Positions 305-22,699 of a stretch of 24,395 nt of DNA are shown here, in pieces (position 1 is the stretch's first letter; each line of letters starts with the position of its first letter). The stretch is from the NCBI GenBank assembly GCA_900128565.1, contig LT636005.1, positions 1 through 24,395 on the forward strand. The letters run 5' to 3'. The position numbers and the translations under genes were made by a program. The notes beneath the pieces are model-generated. The model did no database searches and was not told the origin of the DNA. It saw nothing but the letters and a program-made list of their open reading frames with translations. The stretch is from Stramenopiles sp. TOSAG23-6 (Eukaryota > Sar).

Positions 305-421
305 TAGTACCGGGTACCTGACGTCTTTTCGGCAGTCAAAGTGGAGCTCAATTTTTTTTTTTTTTAAGTATGTATCTTTCGTTCCTCGATATGATAATAT
401 AATTGCCGCAAGGCATGCCTA

Positions 422-1696
422 ATGATGTCAAAACCTGCAAAGAAAAAGCAAAAAAAGGCCAGGAAAAAGTTTGGCAATCTAAAGAAGAAGGATAAATCAG
501 AATTTCATGCTGATGTGAATCAATTATGTGGTAATACAAGAAAGAAGTTCAAGGGTAGCAGATGGCCTACACTTGAAGACTGGATTGCACTCGCTAAGTC
601 GTCCAAGTGGAAGAACAATACAACATTCTGGTTAGATACTACTACAGATGAACAGGCTGGACGTCAAATTGAAAAACATGCTCTTAAATATATTATCGGA
701 AAGAAGCTTGTAAAAAAATCCTTTAACCGATATTTTAGGGACCGGAGAGAAAGGTTGTTAAATGGGAATGAAAATAAACTTGATATAAAAGATGCTTTGA
801 CAATAGTATCTGTGCCTTTTTATTCATTAAAGGAATTAATCAGAAAAAAACGTATGGAGCACATTAATGGTCAGAAGCAGGGAGGTGAAGAGTTTGGATG
901 GGGACTGATACCGTGTCCAAATTGTAAGGAAAGGTCTATACCTCGCCATCTCAACGCAACAAAATGTAGGACTCTAGGTTGTGTAGATAAAGTAGCTGCA
1001 CAAAATCAGAAAAAGAAGACAAATAAAGTAAACTTAGAACTAGCTCTAAATCAAGCTCGTAGAAAGCAATGTGCATGTGGGTGTTGGGCAATGCTGAAAA
1101 CAGGTGAAACAAAGCCAAACCCTACTGATTTTGAATTTGGTTCATATGCACAACGTTGCAAACTCCACGCATCTTTGGATATCAGTGATCTTGAAATTGG
1201 TGTCAAATCTGTTGGATGTGACGGTTGTCAACGAAACTGTGATAAATGTAGGGAATGTGGGTGCTTTGATGGGATCGGCGTGACGCGTGTTTGTTTTGCT
1301 TGCACAAAAAAAGGTGAAACTGGTCAACCAAGGTTTCCAGAAACCTTTAACACTTATAAAATATGCATTCCATGCACTAAAAGGAAGAAAGAACGACGGC
1401 GGAAATCATATGTAAATGCAAGAGAGAATCTTCAATCCGAGAATAGAAACTCTGGTGGTTGGGCAGATCCAAGTGGTACGTTAACATTCAATATGATAGA
1501 TTATTGGTACCGTGTATTACTTCATGAACACTTTAAGTTTCATTACTTTAAATATTATACTTCAAGCAATACTGTAAAGCATCAGCACATTGCTATGCTT
1601 AAAGCTAGGACCGGTTGGACAAGAACTTCTCATTCGCTTGCTTCAGTCTACAAAAGTTGGCTTAAGTCAAAAATGTATCTGAAGTGCCGTATCTGA
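422..1696 (+). CDS. Lys/Cys-rich putative zinc-binding protein, 424 aa
   Basis: Starts at tandem ATG codons (422 and 425) and ends in TGA. Residues 1-25 are almost pure Lys/Arg, as in a nuclear localisation or DNA-binding tail. Residues 40-150 are basic and mostly helical. Cysteines then come in groups suited to zinc ligation: C165/C168 (CPNC) with C182/C187; C217/C219/C221 with C246; C266, C269, C273, C276, C279 and C281; C291/C294; and C315/C318 (CIPC), followed by a second basic patch (KRKKERRRK, about 320-328). The last 70 residues are aromatic and His-rich (HEHFKFHYFKYY). I know no family with this arrangement. A nuclear DNA-binding partner of the large convergent protein is my inference. 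There is no signal peptide or membrane segment. Coding composition and intact length make a real gene very likely. Confidence 0.85.
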   Translation: MMSKPAKKKQKKARKKFGNLKKKDKSEFHADVNQLCGNTRKKFKGSRWPTLEDWIALAKSSKWKNNTTFWLDTTTDEQAGRQIEKHALKYIIGKKLVKKSFNRYFRDRRERLLNGNENKLDIKDALTIVSVPFYSLKELIRKKRMEHINGQKQGGEEFGWGLIPCPNCKERSIPRHLNATKCRTLGCVDKVAAQNQKKKTNKVNLELALNQARRKQCACGCWAMLKTGETKPNPTDFEFGSYAQRCKLHASLDISDLEIGVKSVGCDGCQRNCDKCRECGCFDGIGVTRVCFACTKKGETGQPRFPETFNTYKICIPCTKRKKERRRKSYVNARENLQSENRNSGGWADPSGTLTFNMIDYWYRVLLHEHFKFHYFKYYTSSNTVKHQHIAMLKARTGWTRTSHSLASVYKSWLKSKMYLKCRI

Positions 1697-1993: not shown

Positions 1994-4900
1994 TTACTTG
2001 CTATTATACATGCAATGTCTCTTCTGTACCTTTCCAAGTTTAGAGTCCTTCTTCATTTTGGGGCACGGGTTATGCGGTAGCCCCAGTTCATCTATCCATG
2101 AGCCGTTTTCATCCAGCCATGTAAGAAGATTATGCTTCTCATTACATTTTGAACAAACCTTTGAGCAACGTTGACACTCATAAGTATACCATTTACCCGT
2201 ACCAGTAGCAAGCTTATAGTCCCCGGAATCTTGCAACATTTGCTCCGGCCTTGTCTTTTCCCATGCTTGTATCTCGCTCAAAATTCTACTTTCTTGATGT
2301 TTCTTTGCTTCTTTCATTACATCATGTGTAGGATTTTCTGCCGCCAAGATAATAATGGGGTCAACTATACTTTGACATTGAAATGCATTTCGAGCTGCTT
2401 CTGACTCAAGACTATCTCTAGTATTCACTTCATTACTGCACTTTGCGGTGTACTCGCCAATTGAACCCATATAGCATAAACCATCATGGATTGTCTTTGC
2501 ATTTTCAGTATTATCCAATACTATCTTTACATGTGCAGCAACGGATAGATTTGACATATTCACCTCATTTGCTTTCAGTGTTACAAATCTATTCTGATGA
2601 GATTCTTTCATTCCAACTGTTAATGCATGTGCAAACTGAAAGATAAGACATGTACTGTCACTATTACCACGACCTGTTGAATTCACTACTTTGCTACTTA
2701 CAGCAGATATATACATAAATGGTATGTCATAACGCCATTCACAACCGCCACTATATCTTTTAGCTCTAATTCTGATGCATTTGCAAGTCTTTCCATAAAT
2801 AAGCTTCATTTTCACAGTATCTCCAGAGGTACGTTCGAATCTTGATGGTATTGTGCGGCCATTTATATGTTTCTTCTCTTCATAATTTCCTCCAATATCA
2901 AAACGTTGTATTTCGAATTCTTCAGTGGTAGGTGCACCTTCTTGTTGGGTAACATCTTCACCGTCATCTTCAATATCATCATCAGATTTATCTCCATTAT
3001 CTACAAATGATCCCCAATGATGTGGTGTATCAAAGACTTCACTGGTGCTAGAATCAATTTCATTTTTAATTTCATTTTTAACTGTTTTATCATCAAGTGC
3101 TTCATCTAGCTTTCCATGGAATGCACCAGTCCTCCTCGCCATCTTTTCAAATGTCTTTAGGTGCAGGAGCTCAAGCATATTTTCCCGTTGAGTATTGTAA
3201 TCTCTACTACGGCCACCGCCTCGGCATACTTCTGTTTTAACTATAGAATTACGGAAAGAGTGATGCTGCTCTACAGGTTTTTCACTAAGCATTAGCGGTG
3301 CCAATCCTGCTTCAGAAAAACATGCTTCATCAACAACCTCAACAAGATGAAATATTCCACCTCCACCTTTTGGTGTGTTCAATTCATTACCAAAAAGGTG
3401 TGCTGCAGTTCGCTGAAATGAAAGCATACATGGTCGCACCCATGGCCGGCACTTGATATACTCCTGTGTAGTAGCACAATTAAGTATTGTTCTATATTGA
3501 GCAAATCTTGAATGCAAATGTTTCAGTCCTTTAGCTTCGTAACTATTTGGATCAAAGAAACAGAACTGGAAATTGCCATCTTCACCTTTATAAAGAGAGT
3601 TGTCATATTTTTTCACAAGCCGTAAACACTCTGGATGATTGCATTGAAATAGTTTTTCATATGGCTGTGCCATTAAATCTTGAAGTTTTCCCGAGTCAGC
3701 TCCTGTTACTTTCATTTTCCCTTTTGTACCATATTCTTGAAGCCCAAACGGCGTTTGAAGATGATAAATTATGTGGTGCTTCCAAGGATCAAGTATACCT
3801 CGTAATTTCATTAAACGGCATTCAACGGCAAGATACTTCTTTGAAAGCGTTGAAAAGTGGTGCCAGATACCACTTGAAATTCTTTTTGGATCTGTGATAT
3901 TCATACCAGGTACATATAGTTTGCAGGGAAACGCAATTCCTGTGGATTGTCTCAATTCAGTCACAGCAGCAGCTCCCTTAGCTATTGCTTCTTTAGCAAG
4001 CAAATCATGTACATCACCTGTTCTTCCAATAAATGCACCGAACCGTTGCACCCCATTTGCATTTAGAAAATGGCGTAATTCTCGTGTCATTGGTCCTGAA
4101 AATGAAATATCTTGAGCACTTCCAACACTAGTAAAGCCGAATATGGCTCGAGCACCAGCACCATCAGGACCCCAGATAATATGCTCAACAGCAATAGTAT
4201 GCTTCAAACCTTCAATGTGTAGACCATTCTTCAAAATAGAAATATATTGCGTCCACCATGACTCGCCACCAGGAGGCCCATCACAAGCAGCTTGTTCAAA
4301 TTCGATACGATGATCATTTCCAGTGAACAATACCATAGGTAGTAGATTCATTGTTCTGTTTTGTTCTGCTGCATCGCCAATATGAACTTTGACTGCAATG
4401 AGAGTATTGTGCATTGTTTGTCTATAGTTGCCAAGTATTGAATTATCTGAAACAACATTGGCGTCTACAAAAACACTTAGATACAACTTGGCACCTTCAA
4501 CAATATCCATAACATTGCCATCAGCATCACACTGAAATAAATGAGATGCTGTTGTTTTGGAGCGTTGCAACAGATAATCTGAAAGCGCTGTGCTAACTTT
4601 CACCTGTGATATACTCATCCCATGGGGATACTCATTGGATGCACCAACTGACCATGTCGTCAGCTTTATATTTGGTAGTGTGTCTTTTAGTATTTGTACC
4701 AATTCAGCAGTGGTTTTTGTTATCTTTGAGATAAAGCCAGATAAAATACGTGCCATCTCAAATTTGGGATTTACTATTCTTTCAAATTGTCTTGCACTAG
4801 ATCGTGATTGCAATTGAGCCGTTACTATGGCATTTGAAAACGCAGTAACAGCTCCAGCCATTCCTAAACGACCAAGTATATTATCAACTAATGGCCCACA

Positions 4901-6223
4901 CCTTTCCTTGAGTGAATGTGTAACTTCAGCTCCACGCTCACCTCGCATGAAGCAATCAATTACAGTCATCAAAACCTGCGGAGGGATCAAGTCTTTGTCT
5001 TCTCCAAAAGTTCCAATTATTATTGGAACCATATCTGAAGTTTTAATGATTTCCTCCAATAGTTGTGTATCCTTTAGTTTATCTGGTGTTGGATAATCTA
5101 CTTTATCTTTTGCCGCAATAGGTGATGCTGGCTGTATTGGGTCGCCAACTGTGGGTGATATATTCCCTCCTAATGCAGAAATAGTAGCGGCTATAATACG
5201 TGATCTACATTTAATATTGAACAATGGTCTGTCATAAGCAAGCTGGCGAATATTTTGTTGAATTGTCTCATCAATACAATCAAATCTTTGCAACCATTCA
5301 TCACGTTCTGCATCCTTAACATATAAATTGATTGCCGTTTCAAGTGATGATCGATCATGTAAGACGATATTCAGAGTCCTTAGTATATCTTTACGACCGA
5401 AACCAAAATATCCTTCAATCATTTTTCGGTAAACTTTGAACGCAAAATCAGCACGTGGTCCCTCTAAACGACAACCAGACTTCCAATTTGAAACCTCTGC
5501 GAGTGTATGATATCTCCTGCAAATATCAAAAGATTCTTTGAGCGCCACATTAATCGCTACCTTGCAAATTTGAGACGGACTCCAAAGAACCTCTCTTTGT
5601 CCAGTGCTTGATTCCCAATGTTTCCTTTTATTGGAAATCTTTTTCAAACATGTGCCTGAAACCGTGCATTTGTGGCCATCTGTACACTCTACTTGATACA
5701 TTCGCTCACTTTGTGGTGTAGTTGATGATATTACTTTCAGTACCCGGCACTCCTCCCAATAAACATCATTGTCTATGTTTGTACTCATGGAATTCCGCGT
5801 CCGTAGCTCCGACTCAAAGCCACAATACACTTCGTGATCAAACTTGTTTGTCGCCTCTGTTGCAGTGCACAATACTTTAGTTTTACACCCTGATATTATA
5901 TAATTGTCTATGATATCTGTAACGGTCCGTTTCATTGAATCTTTCCGCACTTTTACGTCCTTAAGCTCTGGGGTAGTCTTGAACCACTTCAATACATCCG
6001 CTGTAACCGCATCTATCCAAATATCTCGTCCAAAACGAATACTACTACTTTTAGATTTGAATTCAAACGATCTAAGTATTCTTGTTGTTAAATTTCGAGC
6101 CATTCTTGGTTGCTTCACATTTTGATGGATCCTATTCGACGAAAACGGCCTCTGCCGTTGAAGTCTATCATCGTGGTGCGACAACGTTAATTCTGACACT
6201 TCCGAGTCCTTACTTTCAGACAT
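1994..6223 (-). CDS. Large orphan protein, 1409 aa, possible element-encoded recombinase or transposase
   Basis: One uninterrupted frame from the ATG at 6223 to a TAA; seven more upstream codons are open but have no ATG. I recognise no family. Visible parts: a basic Ser-rich N-terminus (1-60); a stretch near 155-195 ending VECTDGHKCTVSGTCLKKI that could be a small beta-barrel chromatin-type domain; a long helical region (210-520); a central alpha/beta block with LYLSVFVDANVV (D587), HIIWGPDGAGAR (D687) and later LSEKPVEQHHSFRNS (E985) followed by a basic helical stretch; an acidic linker (about 1076-1090); and near the C-terminus C-x2-C-x3-C-x2-C (C1350, C1353, C1357, C1360), a likely zinc knuckle. 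Ordered acidic residues followed by a basic helix resemble a DDE layout, but with atypical spacing, so that reading is weak. Size, zinc motif and flanking inverted repeats fit an element protein. Confidence 0.88.
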   Translation of the reverse strand: MSESKDSEVSELTLSHHDDRLQRQRPFSSNRIHQNVKQPRMARNLTTRILRSFEFKSKSSSIRFGRDIWIDAVTADVLKWFKTTPELKDVKVRKDSMKRTVTDIIDNYIISGCKTKVLCTATEATNKFDHEVYCGFESELRTRNSMSTNIDNDVYWEECRVLKVISSTTPQSERMYQVECTDGHKCTVSGTCLKKISNKRKHWESSTGQREVLWSPSQICKVAINVALKESFDICRRYHTLAEVSNWKSGCRLEGPRADFAFKVYRKMIEGYFGFGRKDILRTLNIVLHDRSSLETAINLYVKDAERDEWLQRFDCIDETIQQNIRQLAYDRPLFNIKCRSRIIAATISALGGNISPTVGDPIQPASPIAAKDKVDYPTPDKLKDTQLLEEIIKTSDMVPIIIGTFGEDKDLIPPQVLMTVIDCFMRGERGAEVTHSLKERCGPLVDNILGRLGMAGAVTAFSNAIVTAQLQSRSSARQFERIVNPKFEMARILSGFISKITKTTAELVQILKDTLPNIKLTTWSVGASNEYPHGMSISQVKVSTALSDYLLQRSKTTASHLFQCDADGNVMDIVEGAKLYLSVFVDANVVSDNSILGNYRQTMHNTLIAVKVHIGDAAEQNRTMNLLPMVLFTGNDHRIEFEQAACDGPPGGESWWTQYISILKNGLHIEGLKHTIAVEHIIWGPDGAGARAIFGFTSVGSAQDISFSGPMTRELRHFLNANGVQRFGAFIGRTGDVHDLLAKEAIAKGAAAVTELRQSTGIAFPCKLYVPGMNITDPKRISSGIWHHFSTLSKKYLAVECRLMKLRGILDPWKHHIIYHLQTPFGLQEYGTKGKMKVTGADSGKLQDLMAQPYEKLFQCNHPECLRLVKKYDNSLYKGEDGNFQFCFFDPNSYEAKGLKHLHSRFAQYRTILNCATTQEYIKCRPWVRPCMLSFQRTAAHLFGNELNTPKGGGGIFHLVEVVDEACFSEAGLAPLMLSEKPVEQHHSFRNSIVKTEVCRGGGRSRDYNTQRENMLELLHLKTFEKMARRTGAFHGKLDEALDDKTVKNEIKNEIDSSTSEVFDTPHHWGSFVDNGDKSDDDIEDDGEDVTQQEGAPTTEEFEIQRFDIGGNYEEKKHINGRTIPSRFERTSGDTVKMKLIYGKTCKCIRIRAKRYSGGCEWRYDIPFMYISAVSSKVVNSTGRGNSDSTCLIFQFAHALTVGMKESHQNRFVTLKANEVNMSNLSVAAHVKIVLDNTENAKTIHDGLCYMGSIGEYTAKCSNEVNTRDSLESEAARNAFQCQSIVDPIIILAAENPTHDVMKEAKKHQESRILSEIQAWEKTRPEQMLQDSGDYKLATGTGKWYTYECQRCSKVCSKCNEKHNLLTWLDENGSWIDELGLPHNPCPKMKKDSKLGKVQKRHCMYNSK

Positions 6224-6434
6224 TTTCCGCCAATGTTTACACACTTAACCACTCTCAGATAGTCAATTACTTACTGAATGATTTTAATTGTTTATTTTTA
6301 GTTTATCCCTTTCATCTATTCTTCATGAACAGGCAGAGACAAACCGGTAGGGTGTATGAATATGTTTTCGTAGTAGTAGGCCAAAAAAACTTTAATTTGC
6401 TACTCCACATAGGATGCCGATTTGGCCGTATACG

Positions 6435-6456
6435 GGCCAGGCGGCTGCATGACTTC
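6435..6456 (-). repeat. 22-bp terminal inverted repeat, inner copy
   Basis: Perfect reverse complement of 283-304, 212 bases upstream of the 1409-residue gene's ATG. It is bracketed by an 8-bp direct repeat GTATACGG (6428-6435 and 6461-6468), and a 14-T run follows at 6474-6487. Confidence 0.75.
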
Positions 6457-6608: not shown

Positions 6609-6680
6609 AAATTCATAGTTAAATGGTACAAATGGCACGTACCTGTTGTAAATGAAAAATAACTGGCCAAAATTAAATGC

Positions 6681-6941
6681 TTAATACTACATTAAAAACT
6701 CAAGACACAACAACCTAAAGAAGTAGCATTAAACTACATCATATAACAATACAAATACACACCCTTAGGCTTATAAACTACATTATACAATGTACTTTAT
6801 TCTTAAATGAAAAAATTGTTGAAAAATATTTGTTACTTAATTGGTACGGAGTGGCACAAACCTGAAAAAAAAAGCGATCTTTTGTCCTTACCTATTCCTT
6901 TACGGAAAAGACTTTAGTCGTTCCAACCCGTTACCGGGTTC
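6681..6941. repeat. 261-bp direct repeat, copy 1
   Basis: Matches 6997-7257 with two substitutions, at a period of 316 bases (55-base spacer). Each copy contains a 16-bp dyad TACATT-ATAC-AATGTA (6779-6794 here) and ends in the dyad AACCCG-TTAC-CGGGTT (6925-6940). No coding frame is seen. The 6609-7390 stretch otherwise holds only AT-rich sequence and scattered GGTAC motifs. Confidence 0.95.
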
Positions 6942-6996
6942 GAATAAACCTGGTGTGTACTCACACAATATATATTACCGGCTCATATTTAAAAAG

Positions 6997-7257
6997 TTAA
7001 TACTACATTAACAACTCAAAACACAACAACCTAAAGAAGTAGCATTAAACTACATCATATAACAATACAAATACACACCCTTAGGCTTATAAACTACATT
7101 ATACAATGTACTTTATTCTTAAATGAAAAAATTGTTGAAAAATATTTGTTACTTAATTGGTACGGAGTGGCACAAACCTGAAAAAAAAAGCGATCTTTTG
7201 TCCTTACCTATTCCTTTACGGAAAAGACTTTAGTCGTTCCAACCCGTTACCGGGTTC
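6997..7257. repeat. 261-bp direct repeat, copy 2
   Basis: Second copy, ending about 190 bases before the 229-residue gene's ATG. Its terminal dyad is at 7241-7256. The boundary is sharp: right after the shared CGGGTTC, copy 1 continues GAATAAACC and copy 2 CAACCCCAC. Confidence 0.95.
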
Positions 7258-7288
7258 CAACCCCACAGAAATATCTTTTTGTTTAAGA

Positions 7289-9909: not shown

Positions 9910-11201
9910 TCACCACCATTTAGTAAAAGCATTATACCAAATTGTTACAGTTCTTTTTAGTGGACATATTATGATGTAACAAAAGTTATGTGGGCTTGAG
10001 GTAGGAAATAATTTCACAGGTTTGTCCTCACCCGTACCATCACTAGCATTAGGTTTCTGGTACAATCCTTGAATTGCAAAAGTAAACGATGCTACTTCAA
10101 TTCCTCCAGTACTAGCACTTCGATGTATTGTGAAAATATATTTTATTTTGAAAATTTTGAAAAAAAGTTATAAAAATGTTTTTTTTTTGAAGAATATTCG
10201 ATTAAAAACGAAATAAATTAAAAAAATTCAAATATGAAAAACATACATGTACAGTTAATAGATCCTTATAAAAATGTTTTGTAATTTTTAAAATATTTTC
10301 TGTTTTATCTTCCCATTGGCACATTGCCCCACCCACTGCTAAATGTTTGAATATACGAAATAATAATTCGTTTTTCTCATCTTCAGAAAAAATCCAAAAA
10401 TGTTCAGAATCTTCATCACAAAGCATCGCACGTAATACATCAGAAATTGTAACACCATCGATACAGTATAGTGAAAAATATATACATTTTTTTCTTTTTG
10501 AATAACACAAATCGGTGGATACGGAATTGAAAAAAAAAATTCAATTTTTGAAAAAAAAAATTCAATTTTTGNAAAAAAAAAATTCAATTTTTGGAAACGT
10601 ACACATTTTCCATACATTTGTGTATGTAACCATGAGAACCACCTCGTGTTATCTGCTCGGTTTCGAGACGATCAAAGAAATTCATACTTGTTTTTGTTGT
10701 ATAAATTGTTTCAATATTGACTTTACTAAATGTCTGTTTATGTTGTGATGAATTAGGGTTAGGGTTACCTTTTGTGTCTTTTGTGTCTTTTGGGAATTGA
10801 AAAGAATTTTGAAAAGCTGCTGAATTAAAAACACCAAGTAAGAACTTTTCTATATAGTAGTTATCTGTGGTACAATTCGTTTTCGAAACTTTTGAAACAT
10901 CAAATTTCTCCGAAAAGCTATAGCGTTTGAGTTGCCAAAACGTATCTAAATTCCACTTTTTTAACATGAATAAATTATCCTTGTTTTCAAACGTTGGTAC
11001 TGAATCTCCGATAAAAGTTAAATGAAAGTTACTTGGTTCATTTATTGTATTCACGTTGTCTTTTACACTGTCAGAACTTGTTTTATCGTGTACAAAGTTA
11101 GAACTTGTTTCATCTTTTGCATTTGTTTTTGAGCTTTCAGATTCATCTTTTACTGTTATGGTTTTGTCGTACATATTCATTGTTTTTGTATCTGAAGGCA
11201 T
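9910..11201 (-). CDS. CFAP300: CFAP300 (C11orf70) homologue, three exons, 342 aa
   Basis: Exons 11201-10603, 10463-10247 and 10122-9910. CFAP300 is a conserved ciliary protein needed for assembly of outer and inner dynein arms, probably during cytoplasmic preassembly and transport. Recognised by family-typical segments in order: SMNFFDRLE (172-180), HKCMEN (194-199), TISDVLRAML, a long match through LFRIFKHLAVGGAMCQWED, TKHFYKDLLTV (up to 271) and, in exon 3, GGIEVASFTFAIQG and CYIIICPLKRTVTIWY near the end. The human protein is about 267 residues; the excess here is a charged Ser/Thr/Lys N-terminal extension (1 to about 56) and an insert near 137-160. Exon borders were chosen to restore the family alignment and frame. 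Neither intron is GT-AG in this model. Identity is secure; exact borders are inferred. Confidence 0.85.
10123..10246 (-). other. CFAP300 intron 2 (non-canonical 3' end)
   Basis: 124 bases, starting GTATGTTT and ending CACAATAC plus AT. TACAT borders both ends, so the exact cut is ambiguous by up to five bases. No GT-AG pairing here keeps both the frame and the conserved residues. Mirror 14150-14273. Confidence 0.55.
10464..10602 (-). other. CFAP300 intron 1 (non-canonical ends)
   Basis: 139 bases, starting GTACGTTT and ending CACTATAC plus TG. It contains a three-fold 21-22-bp repeat of CAAAAATTGAA plus a T-run (10530-10593). A GT-AG alternative (donor at the same place, AG 30 bases earlier) keeps frame but inserts ten residues not expected in the family. 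Mirror 13794-13932. Confidence 0.5.
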
Positions 11202-12077: not shown

Positions 12078-12318
12078 NNNNNNNNNNNNNNNNNNNNNNN
12101 NNNNNNNNNNNNNNNNNNNNNNNNNNNNNNNNNNNNNNNNNNNNNNNNNNNNNNNNNNNNNNNNNNNNNNNNNNNNNNNNNNNNNNNNNNNNNNNNNNNN
12201 NNNNNNNNNNNNNNNNNNNNNNNNNNNNNNNNNNNNNNNNNNNNNNNNNNNNNNNNNNNNNNNNNNNNNNNNNNNNNNNNNNNNNNNNNNNNNNNNNNNN
12301 NNNNNNNNNNNNNNNNNN
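12078..12318. other. Assembly gap (241 N) at the palindrome centre
   Basis: An unbroken run of N centred on base 12198, the exact midpoint of the window. If the palindrome is real, this gap hides its loop or spacer. If it is a scaffolding artefact, this is where the contig was joined to its own reverse complement. Confidence 0.99.
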
Positions 12319-13110
12319 ACAATATTATCCCTTAAACGCAACTTGCCAACCACCTACGAAGCTCTACGTTTGCATGTCATTTTATATCTACCAATCAATG
12401 GTGAATCTAATTTTAGATTATACTCAACTTTCATAATCATTGACAGTAAGTGCAAAAATAGTACCATTTTCAATCGATTTATACCACTGCCAATTTGCCA
12501 CTTTTTATAAGAAAATCCCTTCGAAATGTCCTTTATCAAACGAATACAATGCTGTAGCGTTGCACAGCGTCCCCAGTATATATATAATACGAGAATATAA
12601 CCTTGTATTGTATACAAGTTCCACGAATATACACTTAGTGGATGATATTTTCCAATTGAACCATTTCTGCTACCTACGGTAAATCCTTCTATTTTTGAAG
12701 CATATTAGCGTAAAAATAAGCTTTCCCGAGTACCTACGAAGCTATGCGCCGGGATTCCGCCTATTGGATATAGATCAAGCGCACCTGCAAAGTTTGGTAT
12801 TTGTGGCTTAAAAATAATGTATCTCATTCAATGCATTGTTNTGTATTTNGTCTCTATATCTATTTAACTAGGAAATTGTATACNAATACGAAAAANCCAA
12901 AGTCCCGAATTGACAAAATGACCAAACACGAAATCTCGAAAACGTCGCTGTCTCACGTGAGTTGCAAACTGCAAATATTTCCCGGAAAAAGGAAAAAGAC
13001 GTTGAGCTCCTCCTCCAAAAAACAACAACACACTGTCTACTTGAGGGTCTACATCGTGTATTTATTTGGGTTGAAACTCTGTTGTTTCCATAGTAGTCAA
13101 TTTTTCTTCC
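12319..13110. other. Gap-proximal region without a supportable gene (mirror copy)
   Basis: Mirror of 11286-12077. A 63-codon frame runs open out of the N gap to a TAA at 12510; it could be the tail of a gene hidden in the gap, or chance. Confidence 0.5.
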
Positions 13111-13111
13111 T

Positions 13112-13138
13112 AATAATAATAATAATAATAATAATAAT
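13112..13138. repeat. (AAT)9 microsatellite (mirror copy)
   Basis: Mirror of 11258-11284, upstream of the plus-strand CFAP300. Confidence 0.95.
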
Positions 13139-13194
13139 ACATAACAACAATTATTTTATACATTGACAACGATTTTCAAAAAAAAGCAAAAGCA

Positions 13195-14486
13195 ATGCCT
13201 TCAGATACAAAAACAATGAATATGTACGACAAAACCATAACAGTAAAAGATGAATCTGAAAGCTCAAAAACAAATGCAAAAGATGAAACAAGTTCTAACT
13301 TTGTACACGATAAAACAAGTTCTGACAGTGTAAAAGACAACGTGAATACAATAAATGAACCAAGTAACTTTCATTTAACTTTTATCGGAGATTCAGTACC
13401 AACGTTTGAAAACAAGGATAATTTATTCATGTTAAAAAAGTGGAATTTAGATACGTTTTGGCAACTCAAACGCTATAGCTTTTCGGAGAAATTTGATGTT
13501 TCAAAAGTTTCGAAAACGAATTGTACCACAGATAACTACTATATAGAAAAGTTCTTACTTGGTGTTTTTAATTCAGCAGCTTTTCAAAATTCTTTTCAAT
13601 TCCCAAAAGACACAAAAGACACAAAAGGTAACCCTAACCCTAATTCATCACAACATAAACAGACATTTAGTAAAGTCAATATTGAAACAATTTATACAAC
13701 AAAAACAAGTATGAATTTCTTTGATCGTCTCGAAACCGAGCAGATAACACGAGGTGGTTCTCATGGTTACATACACAAATGTATGGAAAATGTGTACGTT
13801 TCCAAAAATTGAATTTTTTTTTTNCAAAAATTGAATTTTTTTTTTCAAAAATTGAATTTTTTTTTTCAATTCCGTATCCACCGATTTGTGTTATTCAAAA
13901 AGAAAAAAATGTATATATTTTTCACTATACTGTATCGATGGTGTTACAATTTCTGATGTATTACGTGCGATGCTTTGTGATGAAGATTCTGAACATTTTT
14001 GGATTTTTTCTGAAGATGAGAAAAACGAATTATTATTTCGTATATTCAAACATTTAGCAGTGGGTGGGGCAATGTGCCAATGGGAAGATAAAACAGAAAA
14101 TATTTTAAAAATTACAAAACATTTTTATAAGGATCTATTAACTGTACATGTATGTTTTTCATATTTGAATTTTTTTAATTTATTTCGTTTTTAATCGAAT
14201 ATTCTTCAAAAAAAAAACATTTTTATAACTTTTTTTCAAAATTTTCAAAATAAAATATATTTTCACAATACATCGAAGTGCTAGTACTGGAGGAATTGAA
14301 GTAGCATCGTTTACTTTTGCAATTCAAGGATTGTACCAGAAACCTAATGCTAGTGATGGTACGGGTGAGGACAAACCTGTGAAATTATTTCCTACCTCAA
14401 GCCCACATAACTTTTGTTACATCATAATATGTCCACTAAAAAGAACTGTAACAATTTGGTATAATGCTTTTACTAAATGGTGGTGA
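13195..14486 (+). CDS. CFAP300: CFAP300 homologue, three exons (mirror copy)
   Basis: Exons 13195-13793, 13933-14149 and 14274-14486, total 1029 bases including the TGA. This orientation is easiest to read: exon 1 ends in codon AAT plus GT, exon 2 supplies T (GTT, Val200) and continues ATC GAT GGT; exon 2 ends at CAT (His272) and exon 3 opens with CGA. Confidence 0.85.
13794..13932 (+). other. CFAP300 intron 1 (mirror copy)
   Basis: Mirror of 10464-10602; the three-fold repeat lies at 13803-13866. Confidence 0.5.
14150..14273 (+). other. CFAP300 intron 2 (mirror copy)
   Basis: Mirror of 10123-10246; direct repeats TACAT at 14145-14149 and 14269-14273. Confidence 0.55.
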
Positions 14487-14791
14487 AATAAAGACAATAC
14501 TCAGAGGTTGTGCTACTTGGTACATTCGCCAGTGAATCTAAGTTAGTCAGTAATTGGGTTTTAAAAGAATCGTACCAACGAATGTTGAATTTGCAGAGTG
14601 TTATTCCTCATAGTCATCCAGGATTGTTGGTATTGTAGATGAATCTTCACAACATGTACAACAGTAGTAACCCCTTACAATTACCGTTTTATTTTGTCTC
14701 TGTAATAAAGTATATTATAGTGTATTACATCATACTATACACCAGTAGATGACTCAATCTACAACAGTCAAATGGTGTTTCTTTTATGTGT

Positions 14792-15961
14792 CTATGTTTC
14801 TGAAAGGGCAAGTAATAAATTTAAACCGTCTTGCTTTTCTTTTTTGATTTCCCTGCGCCTTTTCTGAGTTGGCAAATTTTGACTACGTGTTTTTTTTATC
14901 AATTTCTTAGACACAACGGCTGTATGCGAGACTCTATATGATGCCTTTTTCCTTCGTTTGGAACGCCTCAATCTTGGTCCTTCCGGTTCTTCTGGTCGTG
15001 TTGGTCCTCGTTGTAGTTTGGGTTCATCATCACCATCTTTTGAAATATCAACTTTTTCTAAATATGCTTTCACTTCACTTGGAATAAAATGACCAAAATA
15101 TGTGTTGATACCTTTGCCGTTTTCAAAAAAACAACTATTAAAATGTTCTACCCCTTGATGATATGAAAGTTGATACTCATGCATATCTTTTGATTCGGTA
15201 TTGAAAAATAAAATGACTCTTTCCGGAGCTGTAATGTTCTGCTTCATTGCGGCTAGAACACACGAATACGCTTCTAACCAACCGTATCGAATGCCTCCAC
15301 CTTTTTCGTCTAAGCTCTTTGGAATATCGGTCTCGTTTAAACATCTTTCAAAACCTGGATCTTCAACGTAAATATCTCTCTTAAGATCGTGACCTTTTGG
15401 ACCATCGTAATGCGTCTTCGAGTCACCTGCCATAGTATCTGAAGGATAGATACCGTTAGATATGTTTGAGAACGTTTCATAGTTGGTTTGTTTCAAGTAT
15501 TGCAGTAAGTTTGAAGGCATCCAACTCTCTCTTATAAGGTCTTTGATACGATAACTGCCTCCTGCCGTAACAATTCCTACTGCAAAGTCTTTTTTCAAAC
15601 ACTCATCCACAATTTTTCTGTTTCTATCTCTTTCATTTTTCTTTTGTTTTGCTGTCATCGTCTTGTCTAAATCTAACTGATGAAGCACACCATCGATTCT
15701 GAATAAGCATATACCTTTTCTTGGTTTACCCGGTGTATACATCGGTAAAGCTTCCCTAGAGCTTTCTCCCGCTTCAGAAGTTATGACTTGTGGTGCTAGT
15801 TGTTGAGTCGTAACTAGATTGGACTCAAGTGGATAGTTATAGTCAAGTGGAACGGTCCACAGGGGAGCTGTCCTCTTCGTCCTTTTCCTAGCGGTAGAAG
15901 AGGAAACTATAGTGGTGCATTGCACAAATGCAATCAAAAAGAAAACTCCGTAAAAACCCAT
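14792..15961 (-). CDS. Secreted HAD-like protein, 389 aa (mirror copy)
   Basis: Identical to 8435-9604, on the minus strand and convergent with the plus-strand CFAP300 gene ending at 14486. Leader, basic cluster, degenerate motif I and basic tail are all unchanged. Confidence 0.85.
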   Translation of the reverse strand: MGFYGVFFLIAFVQCTTIVSSSTARKRTKRTAPLWTVPLDYNYPLESNLVTTQQLAPQVITSEAGESSREALPMYTPGKPRKGICLFRIDGVLHQLDLDKTMTAKQKKNERDRNRKIVDECLKKDFAVGIVTAGGSYRIKDLIRESWMPSNLLQYLKQTNYETFSNISNGIYPSDTMAGDSKTHYDGPKGHDLKRDIYVEDPGFERCLNETDIPKSLDEKGGGIRYGWLEAYSCVLAAMKQNITAPERVILFFNTESKDMHEYQLSYHQGVEHFNSCFFENGKGINTYFGHFIPSEVKAYLEKVDISKDGDDEPKLQRGPTRPEEPEGPRLRRSKRRKKASYRVSHTAVVSKKLIKKTRSQNLPTQKRRREIKKEKQDGLNLLLALSET

Positions 15962-16255
15962 TTTGTGAAATAAACAGGGTACCTATTTTAAAGCGTTAAA
16001 CAACTATAAAAACAAAGGGACGGAGGGATCGCGGATGCCGCGCACTCGCACTGACTCTCTATTTTTTAAAAAAATTAATTAAAATTAATTTCAAAAAAAA
16101 CAGGTGATGTTTACATAAAGATTTTTTATCTAGCTAGTCCTAGTAGCATAAAATTTATAAAATTATATCAGGCATTTTTTAAACTCCTAATTAGTAAGAA
16201 ACATAGCAGATTACACGAGTTGGTTCTGTGAAGCAATGTACAATGGTGTAACTCG

Positions 16256-16945
16256 TTAATTGTTTGGCTGATTCAAATCTACTTTTGAAGATTTGGGTGC
16301 TTTTGTTACAGGATTAACAACAACAGCTTTAGCAACAACAGCTCTAACAGCTACAGGATTAACGATAACAGGTTTAACATCAGAAACACTTTGTGGCTGA
16401 ACAACATGTCCCTGCACTACTTGTCCCTGTACTAACCTTTCTGACAGTGCATTATATACCTTATTCAGAAAAGCAAGACTTACAAAATACACGGAGGGCG
16501 GAAATTGAAAAGTATGGACTTCGCCGCGTATTTTTAGAACAATCGATTTACGAGGATTTAAAATATTGATCCCGGAACTTGTATGCCGCATAGCCCAACC
16601 AAGTTGCTCAATATCTAGAAAATTAACTTCTCGAATAGTTGTATTTGTAAAGACACCACCATATGCGAATGTGACTGATTGTTCGTTGAAATCTGCAAAG
16701 TAATGATTCCCTTTAATACACCCCAACATAAGAAGCGTAATAATCCCAGCTCCGAAAAAGTATAGATAACCATACTTAAAAAAATGGCAATGAGCAACTG
16801 TATCGTAATCGAGGCAATCGTCATCAAAATAGGTTGTGTCTAGTACAAAAAAAAAGAGGAAGAAAAGCCCCACAAAAAAAAACATAACTGCAATCGCAAT
16901 GATCAACCATTTAAAAGGGTTACATGTATCGTTCACAATCTTCAT
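16256..16945 (-). CDS. Two-pass membrane protein with PH-like domain, 229 aa (mirror copy)
   Basis: Identical to 7451-8140, on the minus strand from the ATG at 16945. The same open frame extends upstream to about 17065. Confidence 0.75.
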   Translation of the reverse strand: MKIVNDTCNPFKWLIIAIAVMFFFVGLFFLFFFVLDTTYFDDDCLDYDTVAHCHFFKYGYLYFFGAGIITLLMLGCIKGNHYFADFNEQSVTFAYGGVFTNTTIREVNFLDIEQLGWAMRHTSSGINILNPRKSIVLKIRGEVHTFQFPPSVYFVSLAFLNKVYNALSERLVQGQVVQGHVVQPQSVSDVKPVIVNPVAVRAVVAKAVVVNPVTKAPKSSKVDLNQPNN

Positions 16946-17138
16946 TTTTATCTGTTGGTAAGCTTCTAAAGTATATGAAAATATAGATATTACTGTTTGT
17001 ACCACTTTGTAAACATTAGCTACAGTAACCGTCTGTGCCGCCGTCGACGTCGTGACAAGGAAGGCCCTGAAATTTTATAAATTTTGGTACAAAACCTTGG
17101 TACAAAATCTTAAACAAAAAGATATTTCTGTGGGGTTG

Positions 17139-17399
17139 GAACCCGGTAACGGGTTGGAACGACTAAAGTCTTTTCCGTAAAGGAATAGGTAAGGACAAAA
17201 GATCGCTTTTTTTTTCAGGTTTGTGCCACTCCGTACCAATTAAGTAACAAATATTTTTCAACAATTTTTTCATTTAAGAATAAAGTACATTGTATAATGT
17301 AGTTTATAAGCCTAAGGGTGTGTATTTGTATTGTTATATGATGTAGTTTAATGCTACTTCTTTAGGTTGTTGTGTTTTGAGTTGTTAATGTAGTATTAA
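17139..17399. repeat. 261-bp direct repeat, copy 2 (mirror)
   Basis: Mirror of 6997-7257. Confidence 0.95.
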
Positions 17400-17454
17400 C
17401 TTTTTAAATATGAGCCGGTAATATATATTGTGTGAGTACACACCAGGTTTATTC

Positions 17455-17715
17455 GAACCCGGTAACGGGTTGGAACGACTAAAGTCTTTTCCGTAAAGGA
17501 ATAGGTAAGGACAAAAGATCGCTTTTTTTTTCAGGTTTGTGCCACTCCGTACCAATTAAGTAACAAATATTTTTCAACAATTTTTTCATTTAAGAATAAA
17601 GTACATTGTATAATGTAGTTTATAAGCCTAAGGGTGTGTATTTGTATTGTTATATGATGTAGTTTAATGCTACTTCTTTAGGTTGTTGTGTCTTGAGTTT
17701 TTAATGTAGTATTAA
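17455..17715. repeat. 261-bp direct repeat, copy 1 (mirror)
   Basis: Mirror of 6681-6941. Confidence 0.95.
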
Positions 17716-17787
17716 GCATTTAATTTTGGCCAGTTATTTTTCATTTACAACAGGTACGTGCCATTTGTACCATTTAACTATGAATTT

Positions 17788-17865
17788 TTATTTAAAATTG
17801 ATGAACGGCTGAATTGACAATGACAGACGCTTCACAATTTTCACAAAGATTTTATTGCCCGCCAT
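17788..17865 (-). other. 25-codon ORF, possible first exon (mirror copy)
   Basis: Mirror of 6531-6608. Confidence 0.15.
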
Positions 17866-17939
17866 GAAATTTATTAATTTAACAGTAGAAACAAGTCAGT
17901 GAAAGTGTAAAAAAAAAAAAAATTATACCGTATACTATA

Positions 17940-17961
17940 GAAGTCATGCAGCCGCCTGGCC
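17940..17961 (+). repeat. 22-bp terminal inverted repeat, inner copy (mirror)
   Basis: Mirror of 6435-6456, upstream of the right-arm 1409-residue gene. Confidence 0.75.
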
Positions 17962-18172
17962 CGTATACGGCCAAATCGGCATCCTATGTGGAGTAGCAAA
18001 TTAAAGTTTTTTTGGCCTACTACTACGAAAACATATTCATACACCCTACCGGTTTGTCTCTGCCTGTTCATGAAGAATAGATGAAAGGGATAAACTAAAA
18101 ATAAACAATTAAAATCATTCAGTAAGTAATTGACTATCTGAGAGTGGTTAAGTGTGTAAACATTGGCGGAAA

Positions 18173-21100
18173 ATGTCTGAAAGTAAGGACTCGGAAGTGT
18201 CAGAATTAACGTTGTCGCACCACGATGATAGACTTCAACGGCAGAGGCCGTTTTCGTCGAATAGGATCCATCAAAATGTGAAGCAACCAAGAATGGCTCG
18301 AAATTTAACAACAAGAATACTTAGATCGTTTGAATTCAAATCTAAAAGTAGTAGTATTCGTTTTGGACGAGATATTTGGATAGATGCGGTTACAGCGGAT
18401 GTATTGAAGTGGTTCAAGACTACCCCAGAGCTTAAGGACGTAAAAGTGCGGAAAGATTCAATGAAACGGACCGTTACAGATATCATAGACAATTATATAA
18501 TATCAGGGTGTAAAACTAAAGTATTGTGCACTGCAACAGAGGCGACAAACAAGTTTGATCACGAAGTGTATTGTGGCTTTGAGTCGGAGCTACGGACGCG
18601 GAATTCCATGAGTACAAACATAGACAATGATGTTTATTGGGAGGAGTGCCGGGTACTGAAAGTAATATCATCAACTACACCACAAAGTGAGCGAATGTAT
18701 CAAGTAGAGTGTACAGATGGCCACAAATGCACGGTTTCAGGCACATGTTTGAAAAAGATTTCCAATAAAAGGAAACATTGGGAATCAAGCACTGGACAAA
18801 GAGAGGTTCTTTGGAGTCCGTCTCAAATTTGCAAGGTAGCGATTAATGTGGCGCTCAAAGAATCTTTTGATATTTGCAGGAGATATCATACACTCGCAGA
18901 GGTTTCAAATTGGAAGTCTGGTTGTCGTTTAGAGGGACCACGTGCTGATTTTGCGTTCAAAGTTTACCGAAAAATGATTGAAGGATATTTTGGTTTCGGT
19001 CGTAAAGATATACTAAGGACTCTGAATATCGTCTTACATGATCGATCATCACTTGAAACGGCAATCAATTTATATGTTAAGGATGCAGAACGTGATGAAT
19101 GGTTGCAAAGATTTGATTGTATTGATGAGACAATTCAACAAAATATTCGCCAGCTTGCTTATGACAGACCATTGTTCAATATTAAATGTAGATCACGTAT
19201 TATAGCCGCTACTATTTCTGCATTAGGAGGGAATATATCACCCACAGTTGGCGACCCAATACAGCCAGCATCACCTATTGCGGCAAAAGATAAAGTAGAT
19301 TATCCAACACCAGATAAACTAAAGGATACACAACTATTGGAGGAAATCATTAAAACTTCAGATATGGTTCCAATAATAATTGGAACTTTTGGAGAAGACA
19401 AAGACTTGATCCCTCCGCAGGTTTTGATGACTGTAATTGATTGCTTCATGCGAGGTGAGCGTGGAGCTGAAGTTACACATTCACTCAAGGAAAGGTGTGG
19501 GCCATTAGTTGATAATATACTTGGTCGTTTAGGAATGGCTGGAGCTGTTACTGCGTTTTCAAATGCCATAGTAACGGCTCAATTGCAATCACGATCTAGT
19601 GCAAGACAATTTGAAAGAATAGTAAATCCCAAATTTGAGATGGCACGTATTTTATCTGGCTTTATCTCAAAGATAACAAAAACCACTGCTGAATTGGTAC
19701 AAATACTAAAAGACACACTACCAAATATAAAGCTGACGACATGGTCAGTTGGTGCATCCAATGAGTATCCCCATGGGATGAGTATATCACAGGTGAAAGT
19801 TAGCACAGCGCTTTCAGATTATCTGTTGCAACGCTCCAAAACAACAGCATCTCATTTATTTCAGTGTGATGCTGATGGCAATGTTATGGATATTGTTGAA
19901 GGTGCCAAGTTGTATCTAAGTGTTTTTGTAGACGCCAATGTTGTTTCAGATAATTCAATACTTGGCAACTATAGACAAACAATGCACAATACTCTCATTG
20001 CAGTCAAAGTTCATATTGGCGATGCAGCAGAACAAAACAGAACAATGAATCTACTACCTATGGTATTGTTCACTGGAAATGATCATCGTATCGAATTTGA
20101 ACAAGCTGCTTGTGATGGGCCTCCTGGTGGCGAGTCATGGTGGACGCAATATATTTCTATTTTGAAGAATGGTCTACACATTGAAGGTTTGAAGCATACT
20201 ATTGCTGTTGAGCATATTATCTGGGGTCCTGATGGTGCTGGTGCTCGAGCCATATTCGGCTTTACTAGTGTTGGAAGTGCTCAAGATATTTCATTTTCAG
20301 GACCAATGACACGAGAATTACGCCATTTTCTAAATGCAAATGGGGTGCAACGGTTCGGTGCATTTATTGGAAGAACAGGTGATGTACATGATTTGCTTGC
20401 TAAAGAAGCAATAGCTAAGGGAGCTGCTGCTGTGACTGAATTGAGACAATCCACAGGAATTGCGTTTCCCTGCAAACTATATGTACCTGGTATGAATATC
20501 ACAGATCCAAAAAGAATTTCAAGTGGTATCTGGCACCACTTTTCAACGCTTTCAAAGAAGTATCTTGCCGTTGAATGCCGTTTAATGAAATTACGAGGTA
20601 TACTTGATCCTTGGAAGCACCACATAATTTATCATCTTCAAACGCCGTTTGGGCTTCAAGAATATGGTACAAAAGGGAAAATGAAAGTAACAGGAGCTGA
20701 CTCGGGAAAACTTCAAGATTTAATGGCACAGCCATATGAAAAACTATTTCAATGCAATCATCCAGAGTGTTTACGGCTTGTGAAAAAATATGACAACTCT
20801 CTTTATAAAGGTGAAGATGGCAATTTCCAGTTCTGTTTCTTTGATCCAAATAGTTACGAAGCTAAAGGACTGAAACATTTGCATTCAAGATTTGCTCAAT
20901 ATAGAACAATACTTAATTGTGCTACTACACAGGAGTATATCAAGTGCCGGCCATGGGTGCGACCATGTATGCTTTCATTTCAGCGAACTGCAGCACACCT
21001 TTTTGGTAATGAATTGAACACACCAAAAGGTGGAGGTGGAATATTTCATCTTGTTGAGGTTGTTGATGAAGCATGTTTTTCTGAAGCAGGATTGGCACCG

Positions 21101-22402
21101 CTAATGCTTAGTGAAAAACCTGTAGAGCAGCATCACTCTTTCCGTAATTCTATAGTTAAAACAGAAGTATGCCGAGGCGGTGGCCGTAGTAGAGATTACA
21201 ATACTCAACGGGAAAATATGCTTGAGCTCCTGCACCTAAAGACATTTGAAAAGATGGCGAGGAGGACTGGTGCATTCCATGGAAAGCTAGATGAAGCACT
21301 TGATGATAAAACAGTTAAAAATGAAATTAAAAATGAAATTGATTCTAGCACCAGTGAAGTCTTTGATACACCACATCATTGGGGATCATTTGTAGATAAT
21401 GGAGATAAATCTGATGATGATATTGAAGATGACGGTGAAGATGTTACCCAACAAGAAGGTGCACCTACCACTGAAGAATTCGAAATACAACGTTTTGATA
21501 TTGGAGGAAATTATGAAGAGAAGAAACATATAAATGGCCGCACAATACCATCAAGATTCGAACGTACCTCTGGAGATACTGTGAAAATGAAGCTTATTTA
21601 TGGAAAGACTTGCAAATGCATCAGAATTAGAGCTAAAAGATATAGTGGCGGTTGTGAATGGCGTTATGACATACCATTTATGTATATATCTGCTGTAAGT
21701 AGCAAAGTAGTGAATTCAACAGGTCGTGGTAATAGTGACAGTACATGTCTTATCTTTCAGTTTGCACATGCATTAACAGTTGGAATGAAAGAATCTCATC
21801 AGAATAGATTTGTAACACTGAAAGCAAATGAGGTGAATATGTCAAATCTATCCGTTGCTGCACATGTAAAGATAGTATTGGATAATACTGAAAATGCAAA
21901 GACAATCCATGATGGTTTATGCTATATGGGTTCAATTGGCGAGTACACCGCAAAGTGCAGTAATGAAGTGAATACTAGAGATAGTCTTGAGTCAGAAGCA
22001 GCTCGAAATGCATTTCAATGTCAAAGTATAGTTGACCCCATTATTATCTTGGCGGCAGAAAATCCTACACATGATGTAATGAAAGAAGCAAAGAAACATC
22101 AAGAAAGTAGAATTTTGAGCGAGATACAAGCATGGGAAAAGACAAGGCCGGAGCAAATGTTGCAAGATTCCGGGGACTATAAGCTTGCTACTGGTACGGG
22201 TAAATGGTATACTTATGAGTGTCAACGTTGCTCAAAGGTTTGTTCAAAATGTAATGAGAAGCATAATCTTCTTACATGGCTGGATGAAAACGGCTCATGG
22301 ATAGATGAACTGGGGCTACCGCATAACCCGTGCCCCAAAATGAAGAAGGACTCTAAACTTGGAAAGGTACAGAAGAGACATTGCATGTATAATAGCAAGT
22401 AA
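18173..22402 (+). CDS. Large orphan protein, 1409 aa (mirror copy)
   Basis: Plus-strand copy of the 1994-6223 gene. The ATG at 18173 is chosen over the upstream in-frame GTG at 18152 because a eukaryotic gene should start at ATG. No frameshift or stop over 4.2 kb, so the frame is under selection or very young. Confidence 0.88.
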   Translation: MSESKDSEVSELTLSHHDDRLQRQRPFSSNRIHQNVKQPRMARNLTTRILRSFEFKSKSSSIRFGRDIWIDAVTADVLKWFKTTPELKDVKVRKDSMKRTVTDIIDNYIISGCKTKVLCTATEATNKFDHEVYCGFESELRTRNSMSTNIDNDVYWEECRVLKVISSTTPQSERMYQVECTDGHKCTVSGTCLKKISNKRKHWESSTGQREVLWSPSQICKVAINVALKESFDICRRYHTLAEVSNWKSGCRLEGPRADFAFKVYRKMIEGYFGFGRKDILRTLNIVLHDRSSLETAINLYVKDAERDEWLQRFDCIDETIQQNIRQLAYDRPLFNIKCRSRIIAATISALGGNISPTVGDPIQPASPIAAKDKVDYPTPDKLKDTQLLEEIIKTSDMVPIIIGTFGEDKDLIPPQVLMTVIDCFMRGERGAEVTHSLKERCGPLVDNILGRLGMAGAVTAFSNAIVTAQLQSRSSARQFERIVNPKFEMARILSGFISKITKTTAELVQILKDTLPNIKLTTWSVGASNEYPHGMSISQVKVSTALSDYLLQRSKTTASHLFQCDADGNVMDIVEGAKLYLSVFVDANVVSDNSILGNYRQTMHNTLIAVKVHIGDAAEQNRTMNLLPMVLFTGNDHRIEFEQAACDGPPGGESWWTQYISILKNGLHIEGLKHTIAVEHIIWGPDGAGARAIFGFTSVGSAQDISFSGPMTRELRHFLNANGVQRFGAFIGRTGDVHDLLAKEAIAKGAAAVTELRQSTGIAFPCKLYVPGMNITDPKRISSGIWHHFSTLSKKYLAVECRLMKLRGILDPWKHHIIYHLQTPFGLQEYGTKGKMKVTGADSGKLQDLMAQPYEKLFQCNHPECLRLVKKYDNSLYKGEDGNFQFCFFDPNSYEAKGLKHLHSRFAQYRTILNCATTQEYIKCRPWVRPCMLSFQRTAAHLFGNELNTPKGGGGIFHLVEVVDEACFSEAGLAPLMLSEKPVEQHHSFRNSIVKTEVCRGGGRSRDYNTQRENMLELLHLKTFEKMARRTGAFHGKLDEALDDKTVKNEIKNEIDSSTSEVFDTPHHWGSFVDNGDKSDDDIEDDGEDVTQQEGAPTTEEFEIQRFDIGGNYEEKKHINGRTIPSRFERTSGDTVKMKLIYGKTCKCIRIRAKRYSGGCEWRYDIPFMYISAVSSKVVNSTGRGNSDSTCLIFQFAHALTVGMKESHQNRFVTLKANEVNMSNLSVAAHVKIVLDNTENAKTIHDGLCYMGSIGEYTAKCSNEVNTRDSLESEAARNAFQCQSIVDPIIILAAENPTHDVMKEAKKHQESRILSEIQAWEKTRPEQMLQDSGDYKLATGTGKWYTYECQRCSKVCSKCNEKHNLLTWLDENGSWIDELGLPHNPCPKMKKDSKLGKVQKRHCMYNSK

Positions 22403-22466
22403 TATTTATATAAAAATTTGAAAAAAANATATTTTTTATTACATTTCTCAATTTGTTAATTTTTAT

Positions 22467-22556
22467 GTAACATTTGCTACATTTGCAATGTTTGCTACAT
22501 TTGCTACGTTTGCAATGTTTGCTACATTTGCTGCATTTGCAATGTTTGCTACATTT
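22467..22556. repeat. 9-bp tandem array (mirror copy)
   Basis: Mirror of 1840-1929; units read GCTACATTT / GCAATGTTT on the plus strand. Confidence 0.9.
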
Positions 22557-22579
22557 ACAATGTAATTCACTTTTACAAG

Positions 22580-22644
22580 AGATCCGTTGAACTTAAACGA
22601 CAGTTTCGTAAGTTTCGTAACTGTCGTTTAAGTTCAACGGATCT
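22580..22644. terminator. 26-bp perfect hairpin (mirror copy)
   Basis: Mirror of 1752-1816 in the convergent 3' region of the right-arm element. Arms 22580-22605 and 22619-22644. Confidence 0.6.
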
Positions 22645-22699
22645 TATGCTCTATAAAGAAATCTTTTGTATTATTACTTACTGGGCGGCAGTTTCTCCT

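Follow-up and report, generated by a model that had tools for sequence, protein, structure and literature searches.

The window, the whole 24,395-base stretch of DNA analysed here, has a GC content of 36.5% and forms contig C55 of a eukaryotic assembly (408 contigs, 8,027,113 bases). It reads the same as its reverse complement, around a central gap of 241 N (12078-12318), and each feature is consequently present twice. This palindrome of the whole window probably arose as an artefact of amplification or scaffolding; mirrored matches were also seen on contigs C2, C37, and C372, as amplification or scaffolding chimeras would give. We use the plus-strand copy throughout, in which positions 13794-14273, spanning intron 1, exon 2, and intron 2 of a CFAP300 gene, mirror the minus-strand interval 10123-10602 described in an initial annotation of this DNA.

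The CFAP300 gene lies in three coding blocks (Table 1). The Pfam profile PF14926 matches three separate frames, with 45.7, 96.5, and 24.5 bits (the third below the family cut-off of 27), and joining them at the cuts given here yields a product of 342 residues with a single match of 198.0 bits over profile positions 8-246. Used as a protein query, this product retrieved six homologues, the two closest with 47 and 46% identity, and it tracks these two across both junctions when each intron is cut from GT to the 3' motif plus two bases; exon 2 alone, as a protein query, gave no match. At the first junction, the product reads ENVIDG (EN-V-IDG) against EEVFDG and EDVFDG in the two closest homologues, with the V common to all, and at the second it reads LLTVHRSASTGGIEVAS, identical in homologue P0121. 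The three-block junctions of the initial annotation are thus borne out by the joined product.

Table 1. CFAP300 exons, introns, and splice signals in the plus-strand copy, with the mirrored minus-strand positions
Feature	Positions	Strand	Evidence	Mirror (-)
Exon 1, from the frame's first ATG	13195..13793	+	PF14926 match	10603-11201
Intron 1, GTACGTTT...TTTTCACTATAC+TG (GT...TATACTG)	13794..13932	+	frame, homologues	10464-10602
5' splice motif GTACGTTT of intron 1	13794..13801	+	sequence; family consensus GTAYGTTT	
Only in-frame AG usable as GT-AG alternative, intron 1; disfavoured	13901..13902	+	scores, homologues	
3' motif TTTTCACTATAC and last two bases TG, intron 1	13919..13932	+	sequence; motif 489 vs 3 genome-wide	
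Exon 2	13933..14149	+	PF14926 96.5 bits, homologue alignment	10247-10463
Intron 2, GTATGTTT...TTTTCACAATAC+AT (GT...AATACAT), AG-free	14150..14273	+	frame, homologue	10123-10246
5' splice motif GTATGTTT of intron 2	14150..14157	+	sequence	
TATAAC, degenerate branch-site-like word, intron 2	14224..14229	+	judged by eye; family core GTACCTAAC	
3' motif TTTTCACAATAC and last two bases AT, intron 2	14260..14273	+	sequence	
Exon 3 with stop	14274..14486	+	homologue alignment; PF14926 24.5 bits alone, below cut-off	9910-10122

Both introns begin with GTAYGTTT and carry TTGAA and a T-run towards the 5' side; each ends in TTTTCACWATAC plus two bases (TG and AT, respectively), exactly as first described; the AT that ends intron 2 also precedes that intron, at 14148-14149. 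The further claim that there is no AG at the cut holds for both introns, but intron 1 contains an in-frame AG at 13902 that had gone unmentioned. Splicing to this AG would add ten residues (KKCIYFSLYC) and reduces the PF14926 score from 198.0 to 181.3, a cost of 16.7 bits, and no insert of this type occurs at the junction in any of the six homologues aligned. On these grounds, we rejected a GT-AG reading of intron 1. Intron 2 contains no AG at all, and each of the six AGs between its end and position 14330 leads to a stop. Transcripts with GT-AG junctions had been named among the findings that would overturn the annotation; up to position 14330 the sequence offers intron 2 no such junction, and the one open to intron 1 is costly.

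Small shifts of the cut fare less well: PF14926 gives 198.0 bits for the chosen register, against 197.4 and 197.1 for other cuts. Cutting intron 2 one base further downstream produces H-G-S for H-R-S, against the homologues, and cutting between AATA and C keeps the frame but adds a residue absent from the CFAP300 homologues; both were discarded. The exact length of intron 1 is uncertain because one undetermined base (13824) sits within a threefold T-rich repeat of 21-22 nt. Self-splicing was likewise rejected, as the Rfam group I and group II intron families gave no match in window positions 12400-24395 up to an E value of 1.

The signals of these two introns recur throughout the assembly. Counting inverted duplicate contigs, TTTTCACWATAC has 489 exact matches genome-wide, compared to 3 for the reversed pattern, and GTACCTAAC followed after 12-42 nt by AATACAT has 954, compared to 0 for the control; the initial argument that two introns sharing both motifs is beyond chance is supported by the former count. 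Copies were sampled from loci that total 281,087 bases, among them half of the window and some that overlap. From 214 HMM hits, 109 without both ends and 20 that were duplicate, short, or at an edge were dropped, leaving 85 non-redundant copies. The sample is non-random, most loci having been fetched via the 3' motif or a kinase match, and a GTAYGT-like start and an A[ATG]TAC end were required.

These copies are about 80-120 nt long and have differing flanks. They align as GTAYGTTTTCATCATGAATTTC, T-runs, TTCGTACGAAATTTYGTACCTAACGA, T-runs, and GAAATATTTTTTCACAATAC or TTTTCCAAAATAC, followed by two bases that are mostly AT; the best pair is 97% alike and the median pair 60%. The 5' end is GT in 95% and GC in 5%, followed by A, C or T, mostly G, and T, letters that the search imposed. 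After AATAC, the two bases are AT in 61 copies, GT in 10, TT in 9, and AG in a single one. A second pattern, which demands a G after the two end bases and includes some inverted duplicates, gave a similar picture among the 100 matches listed out of 599 (AT 85, TT 8, GT 6, AA 1, AG 0). Together with the motif counts, these 85 copies support the suggestion that the CFAP300 pair belongs to a larger class of introns with these signals.

A branch word resembling CTAAC occurs in 78 of the 85 copies, and in 77 of these it lies 31-54 nt from the end (15-60 nt were searched). Even in the most diverged third of the copies, GTACCTAAC is 82-96% conserved, compared to 36-82% for the arm just upstream, and conservation of the final block (a T-rich stretch, then CACAATAC) is maintained across the family, in part because the search imposed it. 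In the CFAP300 introns, no branch word stands out clearly. We considered an internal palindrome as a conserved hairpin and rejected it: its outer pair is present in 35 of 74 cores and the other pairs in 54-70 of 74, no compensation was seen, and the first arm decays.

A family HMM built without the two CFAP300 introns, run in a 12-kb search whose best reversed-sequence control had an E value of 0.59, matched intron 1 with an E value of 0.021 and intron 2, by its 3' end alone, with 0.31. Both introns have kept both end motifs, have lost the core GTACCTAAC, and match the family body weakly. They would thus be either decayed copies of the family or older introns using the same signals; in the latter case, the 3' motif would belong to the splicing machinery and not to one element.

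What excision does to the reading frame was followed in the 82 copies with enough flank. When GT through AATAC plus two bases is removed, 76 of them keep a frame that is open for 90 nt to either side, compared to 22 when the cut falls directly after AATAC and 13 when it falls one base later; 47, 0, and 4 copies, respectively, are open in that register only. An earlier set of 62 copies, read over 99 nt, gave 53, 12, and 10 open frames in the same order. Only 9 of the 76 open-frame copies could stay in place without a stop or shift. Phases 0, 1, and 2 are represented by 36, 16, and 24 of the copies with a single open frame. The absence of AG also extends to the family. An in-frame GT-AG alternative is lacking in 52 of the 76 copies; the other 24 have one in the stretch that runs from +30 to 30 nt beyond the end, and in 6 of these the AG is internal to the intron. 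Moreover, the last 35 nt are free of AG in 66 of the 76, compared to 5 of 85 exon 35-mers.

Where the flanking dinucleotides are identical, the precise cut leaves no trace: three registers give the same product because the dinucleotide before GT is repeated after AATAC, and only the 28 copies with unequal flanks discriminate. The competing register moves both cuts two bases upstream, so that the intron runs from the two bases before GTAYGT through AATAC, in the manner of an AT-AC intron removed by the U2 or U12 spliceosome. It leaves the frame unchanged and the product identical in the 57 of 85 copies with equal flanks, and AC is a known 3' end of introns. Among the 28 copies, 27 had enough open frame, and nine were run through Pfam in both registers; one of these had no Pfam hit, and in another a Dcc1 match stopped short of the junction. 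For a tenth copy, in a MatE gene (L071), Pfam was run in the chosen register alone, as the competing cut puts a stop into the frame, a defect that the chosen cut causes in none of the 28 copies where its competitor does not.

The residues at the junctions mostly favor the downstream cut. A MAPK copy reads HRD with the chosen cut and HHD with the other (140.9 vs 137.6 bits), and HRD, with its R, is present in the five alignments shown for this query, four of which are MAPK7 constructs. A ClpB copy reads V instead of I, with V in the five homologues shown, three of them near-identical ClpB chains, and with equal AAA scores; a PEX19 copy reads R instead of W (122.0 vs 118.2 bits), against K in two solved PEX19 chains. 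In CFAP300, the choice lies between V, found in the two closest homologues, and C. By contrast, a zinc finger copy (L113) scores higher with the upstream cut (zf_CCCH_4, 32.7 vs 27.9 bits; zf-CCCH, 25.2 vs 23.5 bits), its solved homologues shown (YTH1 and CPSF4 chains) having S or P at the position, and three others lean the same way by 0.1-0.4 bits (EF-hand, 34.4 vs 34.0; S15, 60.5 vs 60.4; PNK3P, 38.1 vs 37.9). Against the upstream register, the intron would open with AT in only 46 of 85 copies, and an ordinary GT-AG intron of the same genome (L080) also has GTATGT as its 5' motif. U12-type introns have ATATCCTT or GTATCCTT at the 5' site and TTCCTTAAC at the branch; the family has GTAYGTTT and GTACCTAAC instead. 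Based on the MAPK, ClpB, PEX19, and CFAP300 residues and the MatE stop, we rejected the upstream cut and consider the AT-AC-like explanation improbable; the register is very probably GT..AATACNN, judging from the protein-level comparisons.

Three further explanations were considered. Ordinary GT-AG introns or assembly errors could have been misread, as the alternatives in CFAP300 intron 1 and in the 24 copies noted above might suggest, and two introner-like introns (L078 and L069) do end in AG. Yet CFAP300 intron 2 and the 52 remaining copies offer no such alternative, that of intron 1 carries the cost given above, and one motif repeated hundreds of times is not an assembly error, which makes this explanation highly improbable. 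Removal outside the spliceosome by means of paired ends, as in the nonconventional introns of euglenids, was suggested by the ends of the CFAP300 pair, and the outermost GTA and TAC can indeed pair in 81 of 85 copies, most of these letters being imposed by the search; in 71 of the 85, pairing is also possible between the base before the intron and the one directly after AATAC. However, the pairs +4/-6, +5/-7, and +6/-8 never occur together in the 85 copies (+5/-7 occurs in none), the base at +4, a C in 50 of 85, shows no covariation with its partner, the branch-site-like core is under constraint, and the CCT-beta tree described below places the organism among the stramenopiles. Pairing of the ends is therefore rejected as the mechanism and is not supported as a defining feature of these introns, and euglenid-like removal is, in our judgment, less probable still. 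The least probable of the alternatives is that the sequences are eliminated at the DNA level, like the internal eliminated sequences of ciliates, instead of being spliced from RNA. Short AT-rich inserts, two-nucleotide repeats, and an exact removal that restores the frame would all fit such elimination, but the elements carry splice-like signals, including the branch core, and 76 of 82 copies lie in the sense orientation of an open frame. We know of no case of this kind in stramenopiles.

We consider it probable, at roughly 0.78, that the CFAP300 introns are old members of a genome-wide introner family, or share its signals, and are removed by the spliceosome with a 3' splice site that does not depend on AG. 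The family, its frame rule, its conserved signals, its lack of AG, and, at the protein level, its cut positions are all read directly from the sequence; from them we infer that a U2-type spliceosome does the cutting, that the 3' site is chosen via the AATAC motif and an offset rather than AG, and that the element moved as DNA. The assembly also contains ordinary GT-AG introns, among them long GTAAGT...AG introns (HSP60, C380), one on C275, and L080 (GTATGT...TATAG), whose start is that of the family, and a PRP8 domain lies in an open frame of 2,021 residues on contig C84. A search for U2 snRNA gave no match, but no control responded either, so this says little. Given the family signals, these ordinary introns, and PRP8, the simplest account would be U2-type splicing with AATAC+2 as the 3' site.

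The flanks suggest how such introns might arise. The dinucleotides before GT and after AATAC agree in 57 of 85 copies, where shuffling predicts 36.6 and 0 of 10,000 shuffles came as high, and this excess points to a 2-nt target duplication of the type NT. A target preference exists in addition, since duplication alone leaves the T that precedes the intron in 95% of copies unexplained. The terminal inverted repeat is weak (about 3 nt, GTA/TAC, with letters partly imposed by the search). Spread by an element resembling MITEs appears to fit these features best; we prefer a DNA element because reverse splicing of intron RNA is not expected to duplicate target bases.

In the model we propose, a short transposon-like DNA element would bring its own splice signals: GTAYGTTT from its first base, the branch site GTACCTAAC about 30-55 nt from its end, a T-rich tract, and, at the terminus, CACAATAC or CCAAAATAC. 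Insertion would take place beside an NT dinucleotide that is probably duplicated in the process, and splicing would then remove the element together with the second, downstream NT, restoring the original reading frame. That the spliceosome of this lineage reads AATAC and a fixed offset of two bases without AG, and that a DNA transposon exploits this property with its target duplication ending the intron, is a fuller claim to which the sequence evidence lends about even odds. If it is true, all three splice signals come from the element, and its insertion would be silent for the protein whatever the target bases.

Some introns and genes depart from the common pattern. The first intron of a CDK7-like gene (L078), introner-like in appearance, ends in CACTATACAG, i.e., in AG, and a kinase intron with a family-like start (L069, 2483-2623) ends exactly in AAAATAG; these ends are possible steps from or towards canonical ends. 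The spread among genes is also uneven. Dynein heavy chains are hardly interrupted, with open frames of 4,052-4,688 residues on contigs C96, C155, C6, C7, C11, and C87 (that on C41 is shorter and near the contig start), and neither is the PRP8 gene, whereas several introners cut some kinases.

Introners are widespread and also occur in the stramenopiles Aureococcus and Florenciella; they are described with GY/AG ends and rare GC and GA 5' sites, and many families show target duplications, some drawing one splice site from the duplication (Gozashti 2022, PMC9860276). The family described here resembles them in placing similar introns at unrelated gene positions, in bringing its own splice signals, and in a splicing that mostly restores the frame, but it differs in lacking an AG 3' end and in having last two bases that match the target dinucleotide. 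No title or abstract opening among those listed describes non-AG introners in stramenopiles, within a search whose scope left out most subscription journals and all preprints.

In the dinoflagellate parasites Amoebophrya A25 and A120, introns have no clear first or last dinucleotide, and their direct repeats measure 3-5 nt and their inverted repeats 8-20 nt (Farhat 2021, PMC7789003). The likeness to such parasites raised in the initial annotation stands as one of kind, in that introns breaking the GT-AG rule are found genome-wide in both and are partly repeated elements with direct repeats at their borders, and it is closer than that to euglenids; it does not extend to the lengths of the repeats. 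No repeats as long as those of Amoebophrya were seen in the alignment of the ends of the 85 copies, which have a 2-nt match of the flanks and about 3 nt of pairing; in addition, GT and AATAC are constant in the copies read here, and the organism groups with stramenopiles. The nonconventional introns of euglenids, whose hallmark is the three pairs considered above (PMC4770533), share with this family noncanonical borders and end pairing over a few bases but not its branch-site-like core, and none of the 85 copies has their defining pairs. Fritillariid tunicates likewise have non-AG intron ends on the scale of the genome, attributed to altered spliceosome components (PMC13326754), but with other border types (AG-A(N); PMC7789003) and without a shared element.

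The placement of the organism comes from CCT-beta (C330). The protein has 89% identity to an environmental protein, 70-71% to stramenopiles such as Triparma, Phytophthora, and Tribonema, and 67-68% to two land-plant entries, whose scores place them second and third. A tree of 34 chosen sequences groups it with five environmental sequences and then with the labyrinthulid Aplanochytrium (97/95). On this one protein tree, the organism is likely an uncultured heterotrophic stramenopile.

Nearly all 3' splice sites have an AG, whose recognition is part of the textbook account of splicing. A genome in which hundreds of similar introns ending in AATACNN sit beside GT-AG introns and PRP8 would make AG-independent choice of the 3' site testable in a natural system. 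It also suggests how introns could be gained silently, with the target duplication providing the end of the intron. There is a practical side as well: many genes that bear the family would be broken up by gene finders built on the GT-AG rule. Single-cell genomes of MAST-4 are described as having few but long introns (PMC5269757); if the organism is a relative of MAST-4, that description may merit a recheck with an AATACNN model.

Several other features of the window were recorded. By eye, GAAGTCATGCAGCCGCCTGGCC is found at 283-304 and, inverted, at 6435-6456, at the ends of a 6.2-kb block with open frames of 432 residues (398-1696, plus strand) and 1,416 residues (1994-6244, minus strand) that have no Pfam match above the cut-off. 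This block is possibly an autonomous transposon. A direct duplication of 294 nt, 95% identical (6651-6944 and 6967-7260), adjoins it. Positions 1752-1816 hold a 32-nt inverted repeat that is 94% complementary, with 1 nt between its arms; in its mirror, at 22579-22644, a mir-237 match below the gathering score is probably spurious. Finally, a short tandem array with units of 9-18 nt (GCAAATGTA and GCAAACATT) occupies positions 1815-1944.
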